Shown here piece after piece: positions 181-62,080 of a stretch of DNA of 64,000 bases. Made by a program: the position numbers and the translations under genes. Numbering within the stretch: position 1 is the stretch's first letter; the number at the start of each line of letters is the position of its first letter. The notes below the pieces were generated by a model. The model did not search any database and was not told where the DNA came from. It was given only the letters and a program-made list of their open reading frames with translations. This stretch comes from Lepas anatifera (taxonomy: Eukaryota; Arthropoda; Thecostraca; Lepadidae), in the NCBI GenBank assembly GCA_034440635.1, contig JAOTON010000466.1, forward strand, positions 620,001 to 684,000, given 5' to 3'.

Positions 181-1206
181 TTAACCCTCGCCCCACCGGG
201 GCCATCGATGGCCCCCCTAAGGTTTTTCCGGGATAGCAGAAAGACGATGAGGCGCAGCACCGTGGTTGAGGGCTCTACCTTTCACTGCATCATTTTCCCA
301 CCATCCCTGAAATTTTTTACCCCGGGTCACCCAAGGTCAGGTCACCAGACGAGTTCAACCAAGGTCACCTCACTTCAGCTTTAGAGCTCTGTAAGAGCTA
401 CATTTCGGAGTCGATCGATTTGAAACTTCCTACACTTTATGACCCCTCCAGGGTCTACAAGGTGTATATCCGGGATTTTTCGATTTCGTGCCCTGAGGTC
501 AGGTCACGAGGTGACCTCTCCCATTGAAAAGCATGGGAAAAGCTGTCTTATGATCTAAAAGTCACAAAAACGATTGAAAATGCTCAGCTTGATCAGAAAA
601 GCGTTTTTGGACACCCTTTCACAGATTCCAAGGGCCATATTTGCCCTTTGACATCCCCAAGGTCATCCAAGGTCACCAGGGGTCAAAAACAGTATTTTGA
701 AAATAACTTTGACCTGTATAAGCTAGAGCGCTGAAACAAACACCATCGTGTTTGTCTCGTCATTGGCTTTCATTTAATATACGGCAAGGTCACTTCCTGA
801 CCTTTTGTGACCTCAGGTCATACTAGGTCACGAGGTGACCTCTGGAGGTCAAACTACTGGCGGGAGGTCTTTACGTTTCCATAGCAGAAAAAGTACTGGC
901 AATTTCCTATCAAATGTACTTTCCCACACCTCAATAGCTCTAAGGGCATAAGAGTTATGCCCAGTTTGCTTAAGCATTGCATATTTGAGTGAAAATAGCC
1001 GATCTTGACCTAATTTGACCTCTGGAGGTCAAACCATTGACCTGAACACTAAAACATGTGAAGTAATTTCTTACTGAATTCACGCGAGCTTTCTAGTGCA
1101 CTTTGCAGATTTGCGCTGACGCCCATATTTTCAGAGTTAGAGGGGGCCATCGATGGCCCCCGGTGGGGCGAAGGTGGCGCCGGACCCCCGGTGGGGCGCG
1201 GGTTAA
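181..1206 (+). mobile_element. TTAA element, family A, full-length copy A1
   Basis: This is a non-autonomous DNA element with no transposase frame. It starts TTAACCCTCGCCCCACCGGG and ends with GGTGGGGCGCGGGTTAA, so the ends are inverted copies of each other and TTAA lies at both borders (181-184 and 1203-1206). A GGCCATCGATGGCC palindrome sits just inside each end. The interior holds about 20 exact AGGTCA or TGACCT hexamers by hand count, against roughly 0.5 expected by chance for this length. Two direct repeats with a 4-nt spacer are visible (AGGTCATCCAAGGTCA near 660 and AGGTCATACTAGGTCA near 820). TTAA targets and CCC after the TTAA recall piggyBac-type elements; that placement is inference. 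Element B1 shares its right TTAA. Confidence 0.9.
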
Positions 1207-1782
1207 CACGCGCATTGACGGGAGGCGGGTACCCGCCCCCCCGTCTGGTTTTTCGGATAGAACATAAAAACGGCGGCGCGTAGCGCCGCCGCACTTGTAT
1301 CCATACGCGTATATTAACAGTAAAAACGCAGTACATGGTAAAACATACACTCCTAACACTAGGCAAAGAAAACTAGGCAGGGGCGCCGCCACGGAATTTA
1401 AGCCATCACACATTTATTAGGTAGGTACTTAACACACTCGGGTTAAAAATAAACTCGGGTTAAAAAACTTGACATACCTTCTCTCATCATTTTTACAACT
1501 TTTGTCAAAATTTTAAGGTTAGGTCATCTCAGGTCAGGTCACCAGTACAGGTCAAGTGACCTGACCTCAAAGTTTAAGACAACATAAGTCGGAACAAAGT
1601 GAACTCATCCGATTGAAGTGACCTGACAAAATGGTTAAAATATTTCGATGGAGAAGCGTATGGGCTACCCAAAGCCGTTTACCATTTTTCACTACCTACC
1701 GTGGTTCTGGAGATTTTAGGGGGTACCCGCGCCCCCCTGTCAAAGCGAAGGTGGCTCAGAGCCCCGTCGATGCGCGTGTTAA
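1203..1782 (+). mobile_element. TTAA element, family B, rearranged copy B1
   Basis: The ends are TTAACACGCGCATTGACGGG and GATGCGCGTGTTAA, inverted relative to each other. A GCGGGTACCCGC palindrome and a GGCGGCGCGTAGCGCCGCC hairpin lie inside the left end. Compared with B2 it has an unrelated stretch at about 1297-1470 and lacks roughly 300 bp of the middle. It uses the same TTAA as the right end of A1, so it probably inserted into A1's target duplication or the reverse. Confidence 0.85.
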
Positions 1783-8340: not shown

Positions 8341-9370
8341 CACTGCCCGGGAGACGGCAGTGATGAACTAGGGGCGGCAGTTATCAGCCACGGGGCCGCA
8401 GTTATCAGTCTGGGGGCGGCAGTGATCAGCCAGGGGCGGCAGTTATCAGCCAAGGGCCGGCAGATTTCAGTCAGGGGGCGGCAATGATCAGCCAGGGGGC
8501 GGCAGTGATCAGCCAGGGGCGGCAGTGATCAGCCAAGGACGGAAGTTATCAGGCAGGGGGTGGTAGTGATCTGCCAGGGGGCGGCAGTTATCAGCCAAGA
8601 ACCGACAGTTTTCAGTCAGGGGGCGGCAATGATCAGCCAGGGGGCGGTAGCGGTCAGTCAGGGGAGGCGGTTAGCAGCCAAGGGGCGGTAATAGTCAGCC
8701 AGGGCGCGGCAGTAGTCAGCCAGGGGCGGCACTTAGCATCCAGGGGGCGGCAGTTATCAGTCAGTGGGCGGCAGTGGTCTGCCAGGGGGCGGCATTGGTC
8801 TTCCAGGGGGGCGGAACTTATCCGCCAGGGGCGGCACTTAGCAGTCAAGGGGCGGCAGTTACCAGTCAGGGGCGGCAATGATCAGCAAGGAGGCGGCAGT
8901 GATCAGCCAGGGCGGCAGTGGCGAACGAGGGGCGGCAGTGATCAGCCGGGTGCGGCAAAGATGATTCGGTGGGCGACAGTGACTTACCAGGAGGGGCAAG
9001 CATATGGGTGTTAAAATAAACCGGGGTGTTTAGCCACGGGCGGCAGTGATAAACCAGGGGTGTCAGTGATCAGCCAGCTGATCAGTGATGAACAAAAGGC
9101 GGCAGTAACCATCCGGAGGGGGGCGGCAGTGATTAATTGCTGGCGACAGTGATCGGGCGGGGGCGGCAGTGATGTGGCATCATAAATCAGGGGACAATGA
9201 TAAGTCAGGTGGCATTGATTAGCTAGAGGCGGAACCAATCAGAGTGGAAGTAATGAGTCCGGGACGGGAAAAACTTGTGAGGGGCAGCACGAATCAGGGT
9301 GGCAGTGATGAGATAGGGTGACACTCTTCAGGGTAGTGGTGATAAGCCAGGGGCGGCACATGTATTAGGG
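8341..9370. repeat. G-rich minisatellite, ~20-bp unit
   Basis: Roughly 45 degenerate tandem copies of a unit like GGGGCGGCAGTGATCAGCCA are present. Most copies keep GGGCGGCAGT and many keep TGATCAGCCA. The array decays towards 9370. Frames over it give repeated GAAVIS or RPLADHC peptides, which are artefacts. A GGATCCGCCACTG string at 8332-8344, like a short hAT-type terminus, directly abuts its start. Confidence 0.9.
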
Positions 9371-10837
9371 GTGCTCAGCACATGATTAGGGTGCTCGAAT
9401 TAGGATTGGGGGTGCTCGGGCACCCCAAAGAGATAGAAAATTACACCCCTGATATCGACTATATAAATAACTTCAGGTAGAAGTGCTCTTCTCTTCATAG
9501 ATTGGTATTTGACAAGAGGTACTTCAGAATCTCTCATTTTCCTGGCAACGTATTCCTATAATTTTAGTCGCCGCTGTTTGAAACGGCATCGCAAGCAGGC
9601 AATACTAGTCCCGCGAAGGCACTCTTCATGATACCAAAATCCGCCCCAAAGGCGGCAAGTTATCCGCCACCCCTTTAAAGAAATTCTGGAATCATCCCTG
9701 GGTACATTCGAGCATGCTATTTATAGTTATCTAGCCACAACCGCAGTGTGGAACTCGCTCGGAGTAGCTCTCTCTCGAGACCCACTTCTATCGACGCAGC
9801 GTCTCACAGTAAATGGAGATGAAATGTATCTCTGAGAGCCTGAGAGGCAGTTTACTGCTCGAACGTAAAATGACAGGACTGCCCATGGCACAGCGAAAAG
9901 TGAAATTGCAGATTTGATTAAAAAACCGCCGGAAGAATTATTTAGACATTTTTTGAGCACTGCAAACCTAGCAAGGTATATGTTTTACATTACTGTGATC
10001 TGGACTTAACGCAGCAACAGTTTTCGTGGTGATATTTCCCAAATAAATTCGTATCGATGCGTATAGATAGTAGTGTAATTCGTGCACCAAATGTTAGACA
10101 TGAGAAACGAAATCAAACAAGCTATTCTATTTTTTATCGTAAATCTTCAAATGTTGAGCCCAAAGCCAATGAAGCTTTTTTTAGGGAGTCGAAGTCAAAC
10201 TTTTTCCCCAGCAATCTTTGCATGACGGTACCTTAAGTATGAAGCTTATGGATCGGGCATCCCTGTAGGAGATATGGACTTAGGCCCAAAATTTATTCAT
10301 AGGCTAGTAAGTTATCAGGATAAAACATTTCTGTTCCGTTACATTTCACGAAAATTTGATCTAATCAAATATGATTTATTTTTACCTATGATGAGGCTTG
10401 ATTCAAACTGTTCGTTCCGGTATAAAATTACAAATGCATTTTAAGGTGAAAGACCTCAAAGCAAACAACATTGCCCCTGATATGTTGCAGTTGGTTTCTA
10501 TGAAAGAACCCTTCAGAGGACCATTGGCCCTTTCATCAAACCTTTTGTCTTTTGTTTCGTGAAGTTTGCATGGACCGTCAATTGTCGAGAACCGCCAAGA
10601 CAGGTTTTTGAGGGACATAAGTGTTTGACAAAAACACTGACCGTGATGAGAATTGCGCTGGCAGACGCGCTAGCGAGCTGTCCGCTCAGCACTTGTAGGG
10701 TTGCCTCATTTGTGGGTGGTGCGTCCGACCCTGGCACAGTGCCACATTGTGTGTCAGCGGAGACGTGCCCTGCCCCGTGACTACGGCACAATTGTCTGGC
10801 AGCGCAGCCGCTGCATCACTTCCAACCCAGGAGGAAC
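9371..10837. other. No recognised gene
   Basis: I see no supported gene or repeat family. The frames at 9727-9960 and 10403-10868 overlap on both strands without familiar motifs. A GTGCTCGGGCACC hairpin lies at 9412-9424. Confidence 0.35.
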
Positions 10838-11190
10838 ATAGCACCAACACGCACCAGGGGTCAACCATTGAATTGATTGACTGAGTGGTATTGCGCTAAC
10901 ACTCGCCAGGGACACTATTTGATCGAATTTCAGGAGTACCATAGCGCCAACACTCGTCAGGGGTCCACTGTTTGAGTGACTGATGGAGTGGCATAGCCCA
11001 ACACTCGCCAGGGATCAACTTTTGAATTGATTTACGAAGTGGCACAGCCCAACACTCGCCAGGGGTCCACTATTGGATTCGCTGATGGAGTTTCATAGGG
11101 CCAACACTTGCCAGGGGTCCACTATTGGATTCACTGACGGAATTTCATAGGGTCAACACTCGCCAGGGGTCCACTATTGGATTAGCCAGC
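10838..11190. repeat. Minisatellite, ~51-52-bp unit, seven copies
   Basis: The string CAACACTCGCCAGGGGTCCA or a close variant starts at 10844, 10897, 10948, 10999, 11050, 11102 and 11154. Spacings are 51-53 bases. Copies nearest the right end are most alike. Confidence 0.9.
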
Positions 11191-15691: not shown

Positions 15692-16726
15692 TTAACCCTC
15701 GCCCCACCGGGGGGGCCATCGATGGCCCCCCTAAGGTTTTTCCGGGATAGCAGAAAAACGACGAGGCGCAGCACCGCTGTTGAGGGCTCTACCTCTCACT
15801 GCATCATTTTCCCATCATCCCTAACATTTTTTACTCCGGGTCACCCAAGGTCAGGTCACCAGACGAGGTCAACCAAGGTCACCTCACTTCACCTTTAGAG
15901 CTCTGTAAGAGCTACATTTCAAAGTCGATCGATTTGAAACTTCCTACACTTCATGACCCCTCCAGGGTCTACAAGGTGTATATCCGGGATTTTTCGATTT
16001 CGTGCCCTGAGGTCAGGTCACGAGGCGACCTCTCCCATTGGAAAAGCATGGGGAAAAGCTATTTCATGATATAAAAGCCACAAAAATGATTGCAAATACT
16101 CAGACTGCTCAGAACAACGTTTTTGGACACCCTTTCACGGATCCCAGGAGTCATATTTGCCCTTTGACTTTTCCAAGGTCATCCAAGGTCACCAGAGGTC
16201 AAAAACAGTATTTTGACAATAACTTTTGACATAATTGAGCTAGAGCGGTGAAACAAACACCATCGTGTTTGTCTTGTCGCTGGCTTTCATTTGATATACA
16301 ACAAGGTCACTTTTTGACCTTTCGTGACCTCAGGTCATATTAGGTCATGAGGTGACCTCTGGCGGTCAAACCACTGGCGGGAGGTCTTTACGTTCCACAT
16401 AGCGAAAAAAGTACTGGCAATTTGCTATCAAATGTACTTTACCAGGCCTCAATAGCTCTAATGACATAAGAGTTATGCCCAGTTTGCTTAATCATTGCAT
16501 ATTTGAGTGAAAATAGCCGATCTTGACCTAATTTGACCTCTGGAGGTCAAACCATTGACCTGAGCACTAAAACATGCGAAGTAATTTCTTACTGAATTCA
16601 CGCGAGCTTTCTATTGCACTTTGCAGATTTGCGCTAACACCCATATTTTCGGAGTTAGAGGGGGGCCATCGATGGCCCCCCGGTGGGGCGAAGGTGGCGC
16701 CGGACCCCCGGTGGGGCGCGGGTTAA
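15692..16726 (+). mobile_element. TTAA element, family A, copy A2, inside the LINE
   Basis: It is full length (1,035 bp), from TTAACCCTCGCCCCACCGGG to GGTGGGGCGCGGGTTAA, with TTAA at 15692-15695 and 16723-16726. The internal plan is that of A1, including the GGCCATCGATGGCC palindromes and many AGGTCA hexamers. It lies inside the LINE ORF2. The frame before it (…SNLF) and after it (KELK…) join without loss or gain when the element and one TTAA are removed. This fixes both borders and shows TTAA as the duplicated target. Confidence 0.95.
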
Positions 16727-16876
16727 AAAGATTCGATGTGTGATCACGAACGCCGACCTTAGCAATTATTCTCACTATCTTCTTTTGGAGAGTTATAAGT
16801 CTAGTCAGCCGAGAGGAATACGTTACTCCCCAGAGTTCGGAGCAGTAATTAAGATATGGGAGTATAAGTGAATTAT
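16723..16876 (-). pseudogene. LINE ORF2, thumb-region segment between two insertions
   Basis: On the minus strand these bases read SLILPYLNYCSELWG, then LITLQKKIVRII. This is the conserved block after the palm of CR1/L2-type reverse transcriptases, where LP.L.YC...WG and LQK...R.I are typical. It is an isolated fragment between B2 and A2 and too short for ordinary gene finding. Its recognition is what shows that the two elements entered the same LINE separately. Confidence 0.9.
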
Positions 16877-17722
16877 CACGCGCATTGACGGGGGGCGGGT
16901 ACCCGCCCCCCTCGGGTTTTTCGGAGATAGTAGAAAAACGGCGGCGCGTAGCCCCACCGTACTTGGTATACCTGTTCCCTCATCATTTTTACAACTTCTG
17001 TGAAAATTTTAAGGTTAGGTCATCTCAGGTCAGGTCACCAGTACAGGTCAAGTGACCCGACCTCAAAAAAAGTTTAAGATAGCATAAGTCGGAGCAGGGT
17101 GAACTTATCCGATTGAAACCCATATCACATAATGGCCCCACCGAGTTCTCTAACATATGTTCCGGTATTTTTGATATCGATGACCTAAGGTCAGGTACGA
17201 GGCATGACCTCTCCATTGGAAATACATGGGAAAAATGGTTTTTACGGAATAACTCAGTAATGGATGGTGATAGAGCATTTATTTTAGCTGCATTAGACTC
17301 GCCTAGGCTTTGCGGTTCTAATGATATGCATTTTATATAATTTGACCCTGACCTGACCTCAGGTCAGGTCAAATCCTTGATTTGACCTAGCAAGGTCAAA
17401 TTATATATCATTCGATTCGGCTTGCTAAGAGGATTCATATAGTTTAAGTCGTTTTGCTCTATCTTTACTTGTTCAGATGTAATGCCCGAAAAACTGAATT
17501 TTACATGTTATCCCTATGACGGGCATGTTTTGACCTCTCGTGACCTTAAATGTGACCTGACAAAAAAATGGTTCAAATGTTTTCGATGGAGAAGTGGATG
17601 GGCAGCCCAACGCCGTTTACCGTTTTTCGCTACCTACCGTGGTTCTCGAGATCTTAGGGGGGCGGGTACCCGCCCCCCGTCAATGCGAAGGTGGCTCAGA
17701 CCCCCGTCAATGCGCGTGTTAT
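16873..17722 (+). mobile_element. TTAA-type element, family B, copy B2, with TTAT duplication
   Basis: The 850-bp element has inverted ends CACGCGCATTGACGGGG and CCCCGTCAATGCGCGTG, GCGGGTACCCGC palindromes at both ends and about 16 AGGTCA/TGACCT hexamers. At both borders the flanking four bases are TTAT (16873-16876 and 17719-17722), not TTAA. Removing it with one TTAT rejoins the LINE frame MLYN|SLILP exactly. The target duplication is therefore four bases and TTAA is preferred rather than required. Confidence 0.95.
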
Positions 17723-23264: not shown

Positions 23265-24271
23265 TTAACCCGCGCCCCACCGGGGGCCATCGATGGCTCC
23301 CCCCTCTAACTCCGAAAATATGGGCGTTAGCGCAAATCTGCAAAGTGCAATAGAAAGCTCGCGTGAATTCAGTAAGAAATTACTTCGCATGTTTTAGTGC
23401 TCAGGTCAATGGTTTGACCTCCAGAGGTCAAATTAGGTCAAGATCGGCTATTTTCACTCAAATATGCAATGATTAAGCAAACTGGGCATAACTCTTATGT
23501 CATTAGAGCTATTGAGGCCTGGTAAAGTACATTTGATAGAAAATTGCCTGTACTTTTTCCGCTATGCGGAACGTAAAGACCTCCCGCCAGTGGTTTGACC
23601 GCCAGAGGTCACCTCGTGACCTAATATGACCTGAGGTCACGAAAGGTCAAAAAGTGACCTTGCCGTATATCAAATAAAAGCCAGTGACAAGACAAACACG
23701 ATGGTGTTTGTTTCACCGCTCTAGCTCAATTAGGTCAAAAGTTATTGTCAAAATACTGTTTTTGACCTCCGGTGACCTTGGATGACCTTGGAAAAGTCAA
23801 AGGGCAAATATGACCCCTGGCATCCGTGAAAGGGTGTCCAAAAACGCTTTTCTGAGCAGTCTGAGTATTTGCAATCATTTTTGTGGCTTTTATATCATGA
23901 AATAGCTTTTCCCCATGCTTTTCCAATGGGAGAGGTCGCCTCGTGACCTGACCTCAGGGCACGAAATCGAAAAATCCCGGATATACACCTTGTAGACCCT
24001 GGAGGGGTCATAAAGTGTAGGAAGTTTCAAATCGATCGACTTTGAAATGTAGCTCTTACAGAGCTCTAAAGTGAAGTGAGGTGACCTTGGTTGACCTCGT
24101 CTGGTGACCTGACCTTGGGTGACCCGGGGTAAAAAATTTCAGGGATGATGGGAAAATGATGCAGTGAGAGGTAGAGCCCTCAACCGCGGTGCTGCGCCTC
24201 GTCGTTTTTCTGCTATCCCGGAAAAACCTTAGGGGGGGCCATCGATGGCCCCCCGTTGGGGCGAGGGTTAA
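23265..24271 (-). mobile_element. TTAA element, family A, copy A3 (inverted)
   Basis: This is a full-length copy (1,007 bp) in the minus orientation, with TTAA at 23265-23268 and 24268-24271. Its left end TTAACCCGCGCCCCACCGGG is the complement of the usual right end, and the internal sequence matches A2 closely throughout, with the same AGGTCA pairs. No transposase frame is present. Confidence 0.92.
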
Positions 24272-24552
24272 GGCCAAATTGATATAACATGATTATATTA
24301 AACATTTGCTCATTATATAGTTCAACGTTTTGCTGTATCAGTTTCATCGGAGGCTTAAGATGGGTACATACAATTTCATCCATAATACTCTGATACGTTT
24401 GGCTCAGGTTAACATCACCTTTTGATTACCTACAGACTGGATCTTCGTCTGCGTATTTTGAATTCCGAATAACGACAACATATGAAAACAGGAAATCACA
24501 GTTCTGACCGTAGGAGACTTATCAAGAGCATGGGCGATGCGTTGCCAAGTAC

Positions 24553-25326
24553 CGCGTAGCGCCGCCCTACTTGGCATACCTTTTCTCTCATCATTTTTAC
24601 AACTTCTGTGAAAATTTTAAGGTTAGGTCATCTCAGGTCAGGTCACCAGCACAGGTCAAGTGACCCGACCTAAAAAAGTTTAGGGTAGCATAAGTCGGAG
24701 CAGGGTGAACTTATCCGATTGAAACTCATTTCACATGATGGCCCCAACGAGTTCTCTAAAATATGTTCCGGTATTTTTTATATCGATGACCTAAGGTCAG
24801 GTACGAGGCATGACCTCTCCGTTGGAAATACATGGGAAAAATGATTTTTACTGTATAACTTAGTAATGGACGGTGATAGAGCGTTTATTTTAGCTGCATT
24901 AGACTCGCCTGGGCTTTGCGGTTCTAATGATATGCGTTTTATATCATTTGACCCTGACCTGACCTCATGTCAGGTCAAATCCTTGATTTGACCTAGCGAA
25001 GTCAAATTATATATCATTCGATTCGGCTTGCTGAGAGGATTCATATAGTTTAAGTCGTTTTGCTCTATCTTTACTTGTTCAGATGTAATGGGCGAAAAAC
25101 TGAATTTACATGTTATCCCTATGACGGCATGTTTTGACCTCTCATGACCTTAAATGTAACCTGAAAAAAATGGTTCAAACTTTTCGATGGAGAAGTGGAC
25201 GGGCAGCCCAACGCCGTTTACCGTTTTTCGCTACCTACCGTGGTTCTCGAGATCTTAGGGGGAGGCGGGTACCCGCCCCCCCGTCAATGCGAAGGTGGCT
25301 CAGATACCCGTCAATGCGCGTGTTAA
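24553..25326 (+). mobile_element. TTAA element, family B, left-truncated copy B3
   Basis: It starts inside the left hairpin (GTACCGCGTAGCGCCGCCCTACTTGG in B2 terms) and lacks about 75 bp of the left end. The rest matches B2 in order, including the AGGTCA pairs, and ends GTCAATGCGCGTGTTAA at 25326. Confidence 0.88.
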
Positions 25327-27445: not shown

Positions 27446-28292
27446 TTAACACGTGCATTGACGGGGGTCTGAGCCACCTTCGCTTTGACGGGGGGCGGGT
27501 ACCCGCCCCCTCCTAAGATCTCGAGAACCACGGTAGGTAGCGAAAAACGGTAAACGGCGTTGGGCTGCCCATCCACTTCTCCATCGAAAAAATTGGAACC
27601 ATTTTTTGGTCAGGTCACATTTAAGGTCACGAGAGGTCAAAACATGCCGTCATAGGGATAACATGTAAATTAAGGTTTTCGGCCCTTACATCTGAACAAG
27701 TAAAGGTAGAGCAAAACAACTTGAGCTGTATGAATCCTCTCAGCAAGCCGAATCGAATGATATATAATTTGACCTTGCTAGGTCAAATAAAGGATTTGAC
27801 CTGACCTGAGGTCAGGTCAGGATCAAATTATATAAAATGCATATCATTAGAACTGCAAAGCCCAGGCAAGTCTAATGCAGCTAAAATAAATGCTCTATCA
27901 CCATCCGTTACTGAGTTATTCCGTAAAAACCATTTTTCCCATGTATTTCCAATGGAGAGGTCATGCCTCGTACCTGACCTTAGGTCATCGATATCAAAAA
28001 TACCGGAGCATATTTTAGAGAACTCGGTGGGGCCATTATATGATATGAGTTTCAATCGAATAAGTTCACCCTGCTCCGACTTATGCTATCTTAAACTTTT
28101 TTTGAGGTCGGGTCACTTGACCTGTACTGGTGACCTGACCTGAGATGACCTAACCTTAAAATTTTCACAGAAGTTGTAAAAATGATGAGGAAAAGGTATA
28201 CCAAGTACGGCGGCGCTACGCGCCGCCGTTTTTCTACTGTCTCCGAAAAACCCGAGGGGGCGGGTACCCGCCCCCGTCAATGCGCGTGTTAA
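27446..28292 (-). mobile_element. TTAA element, family B, copy B4 (inverted)
   Basis: This is a full-length copy (847 bp) in the minus orientation, with TTAA at 27446-27449 and 28289-28292. The ends are TTAACACGTGCATTGACGGG and GTCAATGCGCGTGTTAA. The GGCGGCGCTACGCGCCGCC hairpin is at 28209-28227. It abuts element E1. Confidence 0.92.
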
Positions 28293-28874: not shown

Positions 28875-31061
<2,187 letters not shown>

Positions 31062-34271: not shown

Positions 34272-34841
34272 GAGGTCACCTTTTCCTTTTCCCAATGCTT
34301 TGTCAATGGGAGAGGTCACCTCGTGACATGACCTCAGGTCACGAAATCGAAAAATCCCGGATATACACCTTGTAGACCCTGGAGGGGTCATGAAGTGTAG
34401 GAAGTTTCAGATCGATCGACTTCGAAATGTAGCTCTTACAGAGCTCTAAAGTTGAAGTGAGGTGACCTTGGTTGACCTCGCCTGGTGAACTGATCTTGGG
34501 TGACCCGGAGTAAAAAATTTCAGGGATGGTGGGAAAATGATGCAGTGACAGGTAGAGCCCTCAACCGCGGTGCTGCGCCTCGTCGTTTTTCTGCTATCCC
34601 GGAAAAACCTTAGGGGGGACATCGATGGCGCCCCGGTGGGGCGAGGGTTAACTTGACCTCTGGAGGTCAAACCATTGACTTGAGCGCTTAAACATGCCAG
34701 TAATTTCTTACTGAATTCACGCGAGCTTTCTGATGCACTTTGCATATTTGCGCTAACCCACATATTTTCTGAGTTAGAGGGGGCATCGATGGCTCCCGGT
34801 GGGGCGAAGGTGGCGCCGGACCCCGGTGGGGCACGGGTTAA
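34272..34841. mobile_element. TTAA element, family A, rearranged copy A4
   Basis: Positions 34272-34651 are the left third of family A in reverse orientation, ending GGGGCGAGGGTTAA. Positions 34652-34841 are the right end of family A in forward orientation, ending GGGGCACGGGTTAA. The two pieces point away from each other and the middle of the element is missing, so this is an inversion-deletion product or two separate insertions meeting at TTAA (34648-34651). Confidence 0.85.
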
Positions 34842-36615: not shown

Positions 36616-38473
36616 CAGGGCTGCCAAATTTTTCAGCAGAAAAGTGCCAAAGCGAGTTAGAAGCAGGGTCAAAAAAGGACAAAATTTTATTTTCACTAAA
36701 ACAGCCAAATAAATATCACAGAAGTCAGATTTCAGACTAAAACTACCCCTCACAGTAGTCATAAACTCACAGAATACAACTTGTATCACTGTTTAAAACA
36801 AATTTTTGACAGTTTAATCTTGGCTTGACGCAATATTTTTTTAGTGCACTGCCCATTTAACCTTCGTCCCACTGGGGGAACAATGATGGCCCCTAAGGTT
36901 TTTTTTTCAGAATAACAGAAATAGGACAAGGTGCAGCACTGTGGTTGAGGGGTCTACTCCTCAGCCCATCGTTTTCCCATCCTCGCTTAAAAATTTTATC
37001 CCGGGCCACAATAGGTCAGGTAATCAGGCAAGGTCAACCAAGGTAACCTCACGTCAACTTTTGAGCTCTACATTAACTACATTTCTAATCTGATCGATTT
37101 GAAACTATTTACACGTAATGACCCTTCCAGGTTCTACAAATTGTATATCCGGATTTTTTTTATATTTGGTGACCTGCGGTCAGGCCAGAAGGGGACCTCT
37201 CCCATACAAAAAGCATGGGAAAAGCTCTCTTATGATGTAAAAGTCGCAAAAATTGTTGCAAATTCTCAGATTTCTCAGAAAAGCATTCTTGGCTACCCTT
37301 TTACGGATTCCAGGGTCGATATTTTCCCTTTGATGTAGCTGAGGTCATCACAGGTCACCAGGGTAAAACACAGTATTCTGACAATAACTTTTAACCTTAT
37401 CAAGCTAGAGAGCTGAATTAAACGTCATCGTGTATGTCTCATCAATGGCTTCCGTTTGATATACGGCAAGGTCACTTTCTGACCTTTGGTAACCTCAGGT
37501 CATGTTAGGTCAAGAGGTGCCCTCTGGAGGTCAAACCATTGGCAGGAGGTCATTATGCTCGACGTAGCAGAGAAAGTACTGGCACTCCTCTATCAAGCGT
37601 AATATAGTAAATTTCAATAGCTTTATTGGCATGAGAGCCATGTCCAGGTTTCTTAAGCATTGTATATTTTAGTGGAAATAGCCTATCCTGACCCAACCTC
37701 TGGAGGTCAAACCATTCTCCTGAGCGCCTAAACATGTGAAGTAAAATCATACTGAAGTCGCATGAGCTTCCTAATGCACTTGAAGATTTGCGCTAACCCC
37801 CATATTTTCGTAGTTAGAAAGGGGCTCATCGATGCCCTCGTTGGGGCGAAGGTGGCGCCGGACCCCCGGTGGGGCGCGGGTTAATAGGAGGCCAGGAGTG
37901 CCCCTTCCATCCTGCGCGGCTATCAAATGATTTTATCCGCATAACCATAAATTTTGTTAACATTATCAATTATCTTACCAGCACCACTCCCCGCTAACAT
38001 TTAATATTTTTCCTGCTTTTCCAACTGTGAGCTATTTGCTCTTTCAACAGTGGTGGGTATAGGATTTTGGTAAGTGGGAGGGGAGGGTGAAGCCTCAAAG
38101 CGCACTTTACCATCGAATTTCCACCCAAAGGGCGCGTATAGTATCGTATCCTTCGCGTCTGGTTTTCGGTGGCTATCATGTTTTGGATCGTGTTTTTTCA
38201 CAGAGTTCTCCTCCCACTGACAAAGCAGTTTTCTACTGCTCCGATCCTGCATTGGTGTCAGAATATCTTATTCAAGCCTGGAAAAGGTCAAGAGAAGCCA
38301 TATTTATACAAGGGACAAACCAAAAAAGAGCTTAGGAGCCAGCTGCCAGAAAAAGGCCCAAAGAAGGCCTTATTCCAAGAGAGGGCCAACCGAAAAAAAT
38401 CGCGAGGCCAAACACGACAAAAAAGACCAAATTTGAAATATTTTGCCACAAAATGACCAACCTGGCAGCCCTG
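36616..38473 (+). mobile_element. hAT-like element with nested A5
   Basis: The ends are CAGGGCTGCCAAAT and ACCTGGCAGCCCTG (inverted). The flanking 8-mers are ATGCTGCC (36608-36615) and ATTCTGCC (38474-38481), seven of eight alike, as expected for an 8-bp hAT target duplication. Without A5 the element would be about 830 bp. No transposase frame is visible. Confidence 0.7.
36857..37884 (+). mobile_element. TTAA element, family A, diverged copy A5
   Basis: The copy is full length (1,028 bp), with TTAA at 36857-36860 and 37881-37884. It differs from A2 at many positions (left end CCTTCGTCCCACTGGGGG) but keeps the pair AGGTCATGTTAGGTCA with 4-nt spacing. It is nested in the hAT-like element, so it is the younger of the two insertions. 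Confidence 0.9.
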
Positions 38474-42252: not shown

Positions 42253-42690
42253 TCATTGTCGCTTGAGTAGGTCGAGCCAGCCTTGGTACAATACGTATTT
42301 GCCTATATTTCTGTTTACTTTTTCTCTTGCTGTTGTTTGAATTTGGATGGCTTCTTTAATTTGGCGTTGTTTTGTTCTGGATTCGAAAGTGATCACTTTG
42401 GCGTCCCAATCAATAGTGTGTCCGGTTTCGTACGAATGTTCGGCTGTGGCTTCTGGTTGTCGGTCGGTTAGGGTCATCTCCCTCAGGGCTTTTAGAGACT
42501 TTTGGTGTTCAGCAGTCCTAACCGACATCATTCTCCCGCTTTCTCCTATATAAATTTTGCTGCAATCCGTGCACTCGATTTGGTAGATGGGGCCAGGTTT
42601 CTTCGCAAATGGAATTTTGTCCTTTGGTTTAACCAAAAGTTGCCTGAGAGTTTTTTGCGGCTTAAAGTACAGACAACGACGACGAGACCG
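42253..42690 (-). pseudogene. Penelope-like GIY-YIG endonuclease
   Basis: The frame from 42636 contains GPIYQIECTDCSKIYIGESG and R.AEHQKSL, a GIY-YIG fold with the CxxC and GExGR features of Penelope-like elements. H..ETGHTIDWD and KEAIQIQ follow. In another frame about 50 bases upstream the protein continues towards the RT part (LRQLLVKPKDK), showing a frameshift near 42640-42690. The enzyme nicks DNA to start target-primed reverse transcription. Confidence 0.9.
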
Positions 42691-42699
42691 GAAAAACTG

Positions 42700-43452
42700 T
42701 CAGAATAGAAGCCGTTTCTTACTTCGTTCGTCACCGGCTTCTGACGTTCTAATCTTGTATTTTGCGCATACTCTTCTTATCTGTTCCGATGTTCCTTCTT
42801 GATATGGTATTACAAGAGTCTTCATTCGTTCTTCAGCGTTGGTGGGTTGGGTGTCTGGTTTTTCATGGTTAGGTCCATTGCATCTCTTAACTCTCTTGAT
42901 TTGCGAGTTCACGAACTCTTCTGGATATTTATTATCCTCCAGCATAGATCTGATGTTTTTGAGCTCTTTCTCACGTGCTGTCACCTCTTCGCAAACGTTG
43001 AAAGCCCGCTGGGCTGGCGTTTGCACGACCGTTCTTTTGTGAGCCTGTGGATGGTGGCTCAGATAGTTTAGGTATTGACCGCTTGTAGTCGTTTTGTAGT
43101 AAACATCCGTTGTAATGCGTCCTTCCAGTGAACGGGATAGAGTCATGTCCAAGAAGGGCAGCTTTCCTTCCTTTTCCGTTTCCACCGTGAACTTTATGGA
43201 TGGATAAAAGGATTTCAGGTGTTTAAGAAAAGGTTCGATATCTCCAGCGGGCATCGAAGCGAGTATGTTATCCATATATCGATGCCAGATGTAAGGTGGT
43301 TTTGGATAGGACATGATGGCTTCTTCTTCCAGATGTTCCATGAAGATATCTGCTACCGCCGGAGCCACTGGAGAACCCATCGGAGCCCCAAACAATTGTT
43401 GGAAGGATTTTACGTTGAACTGGAAAAACGTAGTTCTGAGGATGAAGTTCAA
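42700..43452 (-). pseudogene. Penelope-like reverse transcriptase, C-terminal part
   Basis: The 250-residue frame has QLFGAPMGSPVAPAVADIFM (RT motif 4), RYMDNILA (motif 5) and LPFLDMTLSR (motif 6/7). AHKRTVVQTPAQRAF and a helical linker lead to the endonuclease. Motif 5 normally reads YxDD; here it is YMDN, so one catalytic Asp is replaced by Asn. The fingers region is absent. Confidence 0.92.
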
Positions 43453-43504
43453 CAGGCTTGAAATATCACCAGGCTCTCTCTCTCTTTTCTCTCTCTCTCT
43501 CTCC

Positions 43505-50530
<7,026 letters not shown>

Positions 50531-53075: not shown

Positions 53076-53563
53076 CGTTTAATCTAGTCAGTTTCCACCC
53101 AATCTAAATTCTGATCATATAGTCACCCTGAGAAAGGGAAGTTCAGAACTACAGGAATGTCTGTCATAAAACCATGGCCACAGAGCGAATGCTATTACAG
53201 GCAGATAATTTTCTGTATTTAAAACTTGTCATGGCGCCATGTTGAGAACTATCGCAATGGCTCAGTCTCTCTGAAGGTACATTTTAAGAACATCATGCCC
53301 CAGCACATAGTAATACTCCACACAGCCTGTTCTTGAAGTGTGCTTGCTAGATAGCAAAGTAATGCCATCTTCTTTCACCTGCTAAACCTTGTAACGCCCC
53401 GAACCTCATGTTGTGCTAATGTGAAAACATCAGTTGGTCACGGGACAAAGTTAGATCGAATGCTCCCGCTCCTTCGGATCTCCCTAGAAATGGTGCAGCT
53501 TCAATAGAAGAGAGGTGACAGCTCTACGGTTGGCGAGTTGACCTAGCCTGAACCCTGTTTAGC

Positions 53564-53915
<352 letters not shown>

Positions 53916-58520: not shown

Positions 58521-59722
58521 TTAACCCTTGCCCCGGTGGCGGGTACGAGCCACCTTCGCCCTGGTGGGGGGCTAAAAACACCCCCCACGATCTAAAAAAC
58601 TAAGAGAGCTAGAAAAAAGCGCAAAACGGCAATCGAAAGCTCTTCGAAAATGATATCGAAAATACTTCGGTCATTTTTTCTTGTCAGGTCAATATCAAGG
58701 TCACTAAAGGTCAAAATAGGTCAAAATCGCTAATATGAGGTGTACTAAGAAAACCTAATATATCTCAGAAACTATGATAGCTAGAAACATTTTTCTAACA
58801 CCATTCGAAAGCTCTTGAGATGCACTTTCATTAGAGTGGAATTCATTTTCGTGTCAGGTCAAAGCCTAGGGAGCTACAGGTCACTAAATATTGGGCATAT
58901 TCTTGGGAATGTCCATAGCCACCCATGCATAAGGGCGTTTACTTTTTCGCTAATAGCTTCCAAACCAAAACAAGATACAGCCATAGTTTATGCACCATTG
59001 CAATCCTCTCGTCAATACCAATCCAATGATATATGATATTGCTATGCCAGATCAAATTTAAGAATTTGACCTGACCCAGGTCAACGGTCTGACCCAATTT
59101 GACCTGGTATAGTCATGATGTATATCATTTGTCTTCCAGTGACTATACAAACACTTTGGTGACAAAATAAAAGCTCTATCTTAGTTTATTCAAAATTTAT
59201 AGAGAAAACACCAAAAAATGCTTATTTGACCTAAGGTGACCTTTTAAAGGTCACAAGTCAAAAATTTTGGCATCAGCTTCAAAAATGGGCTAAGAGCAAG
59301 TCGCAACCGATGTTTGAAGTTGATTCCATCCATACTTACTGAGAAAAGCTCATTTCGTGATTTTCCCCATGTATTGACAATGGGGAGGTCATGCTCTGCA
59401 CATGACCTTAGGTCACCAATGTAAAAAATCCCGGAACAAATATTGTAGCTCCTGGTGGGCCCAATATGTGGTATGAGTTTCAACTTGATCGATTAACCTT
59501 TCTTTTAGTTATGCGGTCCTAAGTATTTTTTGAGGTGAGGTCACTTCACCTGGCCTGGTGACCTGATCTGATATGACCTTGAGCCAAAATTTTCAGGAAA
59601 GATGTAAAAAGGATGAAGGAACAGCTAGACCAAGTTTGGCGGCTGCGCGCCGCCGTTTTTTGGTCACTTTGGAAAAACCCGAGGGGGGTCTAAAGAGAAA
59701 CCCCCACCCGGGCGAAGGTTAA
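58521..59722 (+). mobile_element. TTAA element, family C, copy C2
   Basis: A full-length 1,202-bp copy from TTAACCCTTGCCCCGGTGGC to CCACCCGGGCGAAGGTTAA, with TTAA at 58521-58524 and 59719-59722. It aligns with C1 along the whole length by eye with few differences. Confidence 0.93.
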
Positions 59723-60609: not shown

Positions 60610-61327
60610 TTAACCCTCGCCCCACCGGGGCCATCGATGGCCCCCTAAGGTTTTTCCGGGATAGCAGAAAAACGACGAGGCGCAGCACCACGCTTGAGGG
60701 CTCTACCTCTCACTGCATCATTTTCCCATCATCCCTGAAATTTTTTACCCCGGGTCACCCAAGGTCAGGTCACCAGACGAGGTCAACCAAGGTCACCGGA
60801 AGTCAAAAACAGTATTTTGACAATATCTTTTGACCTAATTAAGCTAGAGCGGTGAAACAAACACCATCGTGTTTTTCTTGTCACTGGCTTTCATTTGATA
60901 TACGCAAGGTCACTTTTTGACCTTTTGTGACCTCAGGTCATATTAGGTCACGAGGTGACCTCTGTAGGTCAAACCACTGGCGGGAGGTCTTAACGATATA
61001 CATAGCGGAAAAAGGACTGGCAATTTGCTATCAAATGTACTTTACCAGACCTCAATAGCTCTAATGACATAAGAGTTATGCCCAGTTTGCTTAATCATTG
61101 CATATTTGAGTGAAAATAGCCGATCTTGACCTAATTTGACCTTTGGAGTTCAAACCATTGACCTGAGCACTAAAACATGCGAAGTAATTTCTTACTGAAT
61201 TCACGCGAGCTTTCTATTGCACTTTGCAGATTTGCGCTAACGCCCATATTTTCGGAGTTGGAGGGGGCCATCGATGGCCCCCGGTGGGGCGAAGGTGGCG
61301 CCGGACCCCCGGTGGGGCGCGGGTTAA
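60610..61327 (+). mobile_element. TTAA element, family A, internally deleted copy A7
   Basis: It has normal family A ends and TTAA at 60610-60613 and 61324-61327 but is only 718 bp. The sequence passes from CCAAGGTCACC near 60787 directly to the part that follows a second CCAAGGTCACC about 310 bp further on in A2. The copy has thus lost the segment between two identical 11-mers. Confidence 0.92.
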
Positions 61328-61958: not shown

Positions 61959-62080
61959 TTACCCTTCGCCCGGGTCTGGGTCTTCTTAGACCCCCTCGGG
62001 TTTTTCCGAAGTGACCAAAAACGGCGGCGCGCAGCGCCGCCAAGCTTGGTCTAGCTGTTCCTTTTTGCTGCACGTCCTCG
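61959..62080 (-). mobile_element. TTAA element, family C, end fragment C3
   Basis: It reads TTACCCTTCGCCCGGGTCTG, then GGGTTTTTCCGAAGTGACC, the GGCGGCGCGCAGCGCCGCC hairpin and CTAGCTGTTCCTT. This is the complement of the right end of C1, with TTAA changed to TTAC. The rest of the element is absent. Confidence 0.8.

Follow-up and report, generated by a model that had tools for sequence, protein, structure and literature searches.

AGGTCA-rich non-autonomous elements with piggyBac-like ends and a ~171-bp modular body in Lepas anatifera

Binding sites are often spread through genomes by transposons, and in many cases one cannot tell who benefits from them: the element, its host or neither. A 64,000-nucleotide stretch of the Lepas anatifera genome (contig JAOTON010000466.1, positions 620,001 to 684,000, assembly GCA_034440635.1; hereafter the window) raises this question. 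Its commonest hexamer pair, with 217 occurrences, is AGGTCA/TGACCT, the classic nuclear-receptor half-site, and the interval 181–1782 of the window alone contains 27 of them, whereas 500 dinucleotide shuffles yielded 0.87 on average and never more than 5. This interval consists of two elements, which we call A1 and C1 (an internally deleted copy of family C), with one TTAA in common. Here we ask what these elements are, how their hexamers are arranged and for whose benefit they might be kept.

Results

Hexamer-rich elements of three families

Inside related elements totalling 11,797 bp we counted 191 AGGTCA/TGACCT hexamers (16.2 per kb), as against 26 in the remaining 52,203 bp (0.50 per kb). 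The latter value agrees with the chance background of 0.5 per kb assumed in an earlier, sequence-only reading of this locus, which had proposed a group of related TTAA elements packed with the hexamer. The proposal holds on a larger scale than that reading gave: the window contains 14 copies or fragments from three related non-autonomous families, A, C and D, of 848–1202 bp (seven A, four C and two D copies, and one D end). Its hand counts of 20, 16 and 18 hexamers agree with A1 (20), C2 and C4 (16) and D1 and D2 (18), provided that the families it called B and C are our C and D. The copies, with the main features of A1, are as follows.

181..1206, plus strand: A1, family A; 20 hexamers, TTAA at both ends
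198..215: left palindrome of A1, GGGGCCATCGATGGCCCC; centre 22.5 bp from the tip
334..1043: five hexamer clusters of A1 (334–367, 496–517, 660–715, 787–851 and 1006–1043)
1142..1161: right palindrome of A1; centre 51.5 bp from the tip
1203..1782, plus strand: C1, family C; left TTAA common to A1, 7 hexamers
15692..16726, plus strand: A2, family A; 19 hexamers, in a CR1-like LINE at TTAA
16873..17722, plus strand: C2, family C; 16 hexamers, in the same LINE as A2, TTAT on both sides
23265..24271, minus strand: A3, family A; 20 hexamers, right end without the doubled tip motif
24553..25326, plus strand: C3, family C; without left end, 13 hexamers
27446..28292, minus strand: C4, family C; 16 hexamers
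34286..34841: A6, family A, rearranged; inverted left part (34286–34651) plus right end to 34841, TTAA joint
36857..37884, plus strand: A4, old family A copy; ~80% identity to the A consensus, 12 hexamers
44215..45071, plus strand: A7, old family A copy; without left end, ~79% identity to the A consensus, 10 hexamers
49331..50530, minus strand: D1, family D; 18 hexamers
58521..59722, minus strand: D2, family D; 18 hexamers
60610..61327, plus strand: A5, family A, with internal deletion; 15 hexamers
61959..62063, plus strand: further D copy, left-end fragment only

The different termini, the common block order and the TTAA ends of the families are confirmed. Two copies are internally deleted. 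C1 lacks consensus positions 245–676 and carries ~170 bp of unrelated sequence at about 1298–1466, an insert that by eye is bordered by ACTTG on both sides; in A5, cluster 1 is fused in register to cluster 3 via a common AGGTCANCCAAGGTCACC. In A6 an inverted left part and a right end meet at the outer TTAA, an arrangement that an aberrant transposition may have left behind. For three of the four C copies, the distance to an A copy is no more than about 300 bp (181–1782, 15692–17722 and 23265–25326), and one of these pairs shares a TTAA.

Matches to exons of an AHCYL-like (S-adenosylhomocysteine hydrolase-like) gene extend along the plus strand from 30930 to 63032, the first clear one at 30930–31034. 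The elements had been placed in the introns of one gene; this holds in part, as those from 34286 onwards sit between AHCYL-like exon matches and those at 181–28292 are upstream of the first clear match. D1 starts 22 bp past the end of an AHCYL-like exon match (junction 49308–49331), where by eye a donor-like GTGAGA follows the match. At 53560–53640, the beginning of the next exon seems to have a degenerate duplicate just upstream of the exon itself; a group of TGACCT hexamers at 53539–53775 overlaps the exon and its degenerate duplicate stretches and by eye is not an element. Elsewhere in the window are minisatellite arrays at 8355–8957 (~21-bp units) and 10830–11183 (~52-bp units), and weak reverse transcriptase and GIY-YIG matches at 42253–43725, both below the Pfam cut-off, which recall a Penelope-type element.

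The elements transposed and have piggyBac-like ends

A2 and C2 interrupt the reading frame of a minus-strand LINE, whose family we take to be CR1 and two ORFs of which match Pfam RVT_1 and Exo_endo_phos. When the flanks were joined with one TTAA (A2) and one TTAT (C2), a single open frame ran through both sites, reading ...RYILMLYNSLILPYLNYC... and ...HTSNLFKELKILKLQ... across the two empty sites. Thus, these elements transposed. TTAA flanks A1, A2, A3, A4, A5, C1, C4, D1 and D2 on both sides, as TTAT does C2; C3, A6, A7 and the D fragment, having no complete end pair, fall outside this count.

Family A begins with CCC and family D with CCT or CCC, as the piggyBac criterion CC[C/T] has it, against which family C begins with CAC. 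In the six A and C copies measured (A1, A2, A5, C1, C2 and C4), palindromes are centred 22.5–25.5 bp from the left tip and 51.5–54.5 bp from the right tip. The centres are at 22.5–25.5 and 51.5–52.5 bp in A1, A2, A5, C2 and C4, and at 24.5 and 54.5 bp in C1, whose arms are shorter. In D1 and D2, which by eye follow the same end plan, the palindrome is imperfect; it consists of a G-run and a C-run, and the exact test missed it. At the right end of A and C, A3 excepted, the tip motif occurs twice, the extra copy being separated by CGAAGGTGGC and a short spacer. Tip motif, right-end copy and palindrome core switch jointly between A and C (ACCGGGG and CCATCGATGG; TTGACGGGG and CGGGTACCCG), and the bodies of the two families are still homologous despite the switched ends.

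The ends thus resemble those of piggyBac, and we take the elements to be, probably, non-autonomous cut-and-paste transposons of the piggyBac type. Taken alone, the TTAA site may also be compatible with membership of the Kolobok superfamily, which likewise targets TTAA. The piggyBac element is described as having a TTAA target, short tips and, in either end, an internal repeat that is palindromic, at bp 17–33 on the left and within the 63-bp end on the right (PMC7351741, PMC11707139). The elements here share the TTAA, the short tips and the position of the palindrome, near the left tip and further in on the right; they differ from piggyBac in the CAC tips of family C, in the AGGTCA clusters ~171 bp apart in the body, and in that no transposase was found. 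The Pfam scan that bears on this covered 17 of the 63 ORFs of at least 100 aa in the window, with no transposase among them; ten of these 17, at 100–135 aa, overlap the elements and gave no Pfam match.

One possibility is that the hexamers bind the transposase that moves the element, or else an accessory protein, in the way that repeated subterminal hexamers do in Ac and Tag1. That the sites are numerous and in both orientations would suit this idea, as would selection during the active phase (see below), which fits a requirement for transposition itself. However, the hexamers are confined to the body: none lies in the outer 143–153 bp on the left or 163–165 bp on the right, and a role as terminal transposase sites is on this account not supported. 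Moreover, the family-specific tips and palindromes already resemble piggyBac transposase sites, whereas the hexamer does not differ between the three families. Because the clusters avoid the ends, we consider transposase binding unlikely.

The hexamers favour DR4 spacing

Across A2, C2 and D2 (3087 bp) there are 53 AGGTCA, six each of the single-base variants GGGTCA and AGGTGA, and 0–3 of the others. Many hexamers occur per element, in both orientations. Direct pairs within 20 bp, counted in D2 and in the A and C consensus, comprise 11 DR4, two each of DR6, DR7, DR9, DR12 and DR14, and no DR0, DR1, DR2, DR3 or DR5. Everted pairs comprise four ER1 and three ER4, with no inverted IR0–IR4, and there are five pairs overlapping by one base, AGGTCAGGTCA.

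RGGTCA half-sites in a fixed direct-repeat spacing characterize nuclear-receptor response elements, and such half-sites were found here. At the level of sequence, the earlier description of the hexamers as nuclear-receptor-like sites therefore stands, on the AGGTCA core and the DR4 spacing. Against a receptor model counts that two receptors would scarcely fit at once on any of the five AGGTCAGGTCA overlaps. Extended monomer sites of the kind known for ERR and FTZ-F1 were ruled out, as the base directly before AGGTCA is mixed.

Each of the 11 DR4 pairs has a spacer of its own; about nine of the pairs are independent, since by eye those in the last cluster look homologous between families in two cases. 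Because all the spacers differ, a short-period tandem origin, one of the two outcomes that had been set against the earlier reading, does not fit, although there is some evidence for duplication of ~171-bp blocks (see below). A decayed (GGTCA)n array as the source of the DR4 pairs was also ruled out by eye, the spacers being unlike GGTC.

Hexamers are spared in shared changes and decay in private ones

Between families, site identity is 0.72–0.85 in hexamers and 0.53–0.66 outside them, a level that a shifted hexamer mask attained in 0–0.3% of shifts. Retention of the hexamers while their surroundings diverge, as the sequence-only reading had it, is thus supported. Whole hexamers were retained in 10/17, 7/21, 9/16, 10/16, 7/15 and 9/12 cases in the comparisons between families, compared with 6–16% for other 6-mers. 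Of the 17 six-mers that occur 20 times or more in the alignments, AGGTCA (52/97) ranked third, behind ACCTGA and CAGGTC, both of which overlap it, and AAAAAC came just below (12/23).

The younger copies (A1, A2, A3 and A5; C2–C4; D1/D2) showed 11 hexamer changes in 860 non-CpG site-comparisons, as against 29.4 expected from base-matched spacers. Fisher tests by family gave P values of 0.15 for A, 0.08 for C and 0.005–0.007 for D. The families being of common ancestry, P values given family by family are not independent. The hexamer deficit in the younger copies fits neutral decay after insertion only if several active sources account for much of the divergence.

The old copies A4 and A7 were scored against the A consensus, with CpG and gapped sites left out. 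Private or multiple changes affected 23/108 positions in hexamers and 174/710 elsewhere (P = 0.55), whereas changes common to both copies affected 1/108 and 49/710 (P = 0.009); compared directly, shared and private changes differed only at P = 0.057. Decay at the spacer rate, the other outcome set against the earlier reading, was therefore seen for private changes and not for shared ones. Because private changes strike both classes alike and shared ones spare the hexamers, we infer constraint during propagation: the hexamers seem to have been protected in the active lineage and then free to decay after insertion. Their preservation is seen between A subfamilies as well as between families.

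These results also bear on whether the copies are hormone-response enhancers kept by host selection on the AHCYL-like gene. Many copies lie in and near this one gene, the classic half-site occurs in DR4 spacing, and more hexamers are intact than spacer identity predicts, both in A4 (10/19 versus 5.6) and in A7 (8/18 versus 3.8). However, this excess arises because the shared changes avoid hexamers; the private changes in the two oldest copies proceed at the spacer rate, copies lie in both orientations, and some are inside a LINE. Maintenance for a host hormone response, as had been suggested, is not supported, and we regard such host use as very improbable.

The body is built of ~171-bp modules

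With a grouping distance of 40–60 bp, the hexamers form five clusters in A, four in C and six in D, the A count depending on the threshold (six at 30 bp, five at 40–60 bp and four at 80 bp). Family length scales with cluster number: divided by the intervals, ends included, it gives 1027/6 = 171.2 bp for A, 848/5 = 169.6 bp for C and 1202/7 = 171.7 bp for D. The clusters are more regular than under random placement with a 60-bp minimum gap (P = 0.003 for A, 0.0001 for C and 0.00065 for D), with single intervals spanning 132 to 216.5 bp. C2 and D2 agree in the lengths of spacers 1 and 2 (122 and 132 bp), although the sequences of these spacers differ; the spacers of A2, at 72, 155, 102 and 165 bp, are unlike them, which counts against the reading that we favour below. 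AT content showed no clear trend across the spacers, and a ~10-bp WW rhythm in them was inconsistent (P = 0.01 at 10, 0.005 at 9 and 0.44 at 10.5).

We compared the spacers in 153 pairs and both orientations, that is, in 306 comparisons. The families are colinear, as 11 of the 12 top scores pair corresponding spacers or ends. The twelfth pairs spacers 5 and 6 of D2, a clear direct repeat with a period of 172 bp (z = 11.2). Homology between other modules is weak: D2 spacer 3 with inverted spacer 4 (z = 6.6), C2 spacer 2 with inverted spacer 3 (z = 4.6), and D2 spacers 2 and 6 (z = 3.3). Tandem Repeats Finder reported no array within the elements. The ~171-bp blocks may thus descend from old direct and inverted duplications, as is clear in one pair and weak in the others.

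Such homology is what one would expect if the elements were a passive relic, in which a transposon captured an ancient ~171-bp satellite with AGGTCA boxes and the boxes persist by recombination or conversion with no protein bound. The 172-bp direct repeat in D2 and the weak inverted homology in C2 and D2 suit this explanation, as does A5 as a product of recombination between clusters; transposons with satellite-like monomers of 140–180 bp are known (PMC7492417). However, conversion should homogenize the spacers and neighbouring sequence too, and yet no two DR4 spacers are the same; few spacers within one element are still alike, with four within-element comparisons above z = 3 when end-to-end comparisons are set aside. 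We judge a passive relic somewhat unlikely overall, although the module homology keeps it a serious rival.

Discussion

Beyond what had been read from the locus before, our analysis adds that clusters recur at a pitch of ~171 bp, that family length is proportional to cluster number, that direct pairs are biased towards DR4 and that the ends have a piggyBac-like anatomy. We tentatively favour a reading in which the element's spread is aided by a phased chromatin array, kept in place by a host protein that binds hexamers of the DR4 type. Such a protein, for which a nuclear receptor is the obvious candidate, would occupy the clusters, and the bound clusters would form the linkers between nucleosomes. 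The array would thereby be kept phased and accessible in cells in which the transposase acts, and copies with intact clusters would propagate better through it. Modules would originate by old duplications, and their number would shift by recombination between clusters, as the deletion in A5 may illustrate. For the nucleosome step, it is the spacing that suggests it.

Several of these features have precedents. Alu copies carry few receptor sites each, and alpha satellite carries a protein-binding box, the CENP-B box, in long tandem arrays, unlike the dispersed transposon described here. Pearl/HINE elements, which are Helentrons, are not known to have TIRs or a TTAA duplication, whereas TIRs and a TTAA/TTAT duplication are both present here. 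Like the elements here, Pearl/HINE of bivalves are non-autonomous and contain short runs of satellite-like units of 140–180 bp; their units are recognizable tandem monomers in Helentron-type elements, whereas here few units are alike, the ends are TIRs with TTAA/TTAT, and the hexamer cluster is the common feature (PMC7492417). The nucleosome-sized unit with a protein-binding box, putative in our case, recalls the 171-bp unit of alpha satellite (PMC13376190). Coral CMITEs are also TTAA elements whose TIRs vary by family around a conserved internal region, a precedent for exchanging the ends while the interior is kept, although they are about 100 bp long with a 75-bp core and the main text describing them does not contain AGGTCA (PMC2872659). 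Alu, as described, is a transposon family that spreads nuclear-receptor sites, with DR2 and DR4 response elements, the DR2 sites arising largely from CpG deamination (PMC1785376). Here the sites are candidates by sequence; A1–A3, C2, C4, D1 and D2 hold 16–20 half-sites each, unlike Alu, apparently maintained during propagation.

Receptor-site-spreading transposons (PMC1785376), piggyBac-type MITEs (PMC2872659) and satellite-like units of 140–180 bp (PMC7492417) are thus known separately. Among the matches listed from the open-licence PMC literature, we found no description of these elements or of this combination of features. Pattern scans of public collections, which may leave out records near the window's own genome, likewise yielded no recognizable relative, whether with the triple DR4 (50 viral-contig stretches), the right-end motif (three stretches) or a phrase from the body (21 genome-contig and two viral stretches, with at most 5 hexamers per kb). 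BLAST of three reference elements against the 53 stretches from the triple-DR4 and right-end scans gave matches of at most 53 bp. Five viral contigs contain 12–20 AGGTCA per kb, their match positions suggesting short arrays with 5- or 10-bp steps.

Taken further, the reading that we favour would describe a transposon with its own chromatin scaffold, in which nucleosome-sized modules with DR4 receptor sites between them are gained and lost as whole units and are selected through the element's own propagation. By parasitizing a host hormone or lipid receptor in reproductive or early embryonic cells, such an element would stay open to its transposase, an extension that we regard as doubtful. In old copies, shared changes date from the time when the element was active and private changes mostly from after insertion; the contrast between the two points to the element itself as the beneficiary of the sites that it scatters. 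The ~171-bp architecture predicts phased nucleosomes with receptor-bound linkers and, if this proves right, transposition could be gated by hormone or lipid signals.
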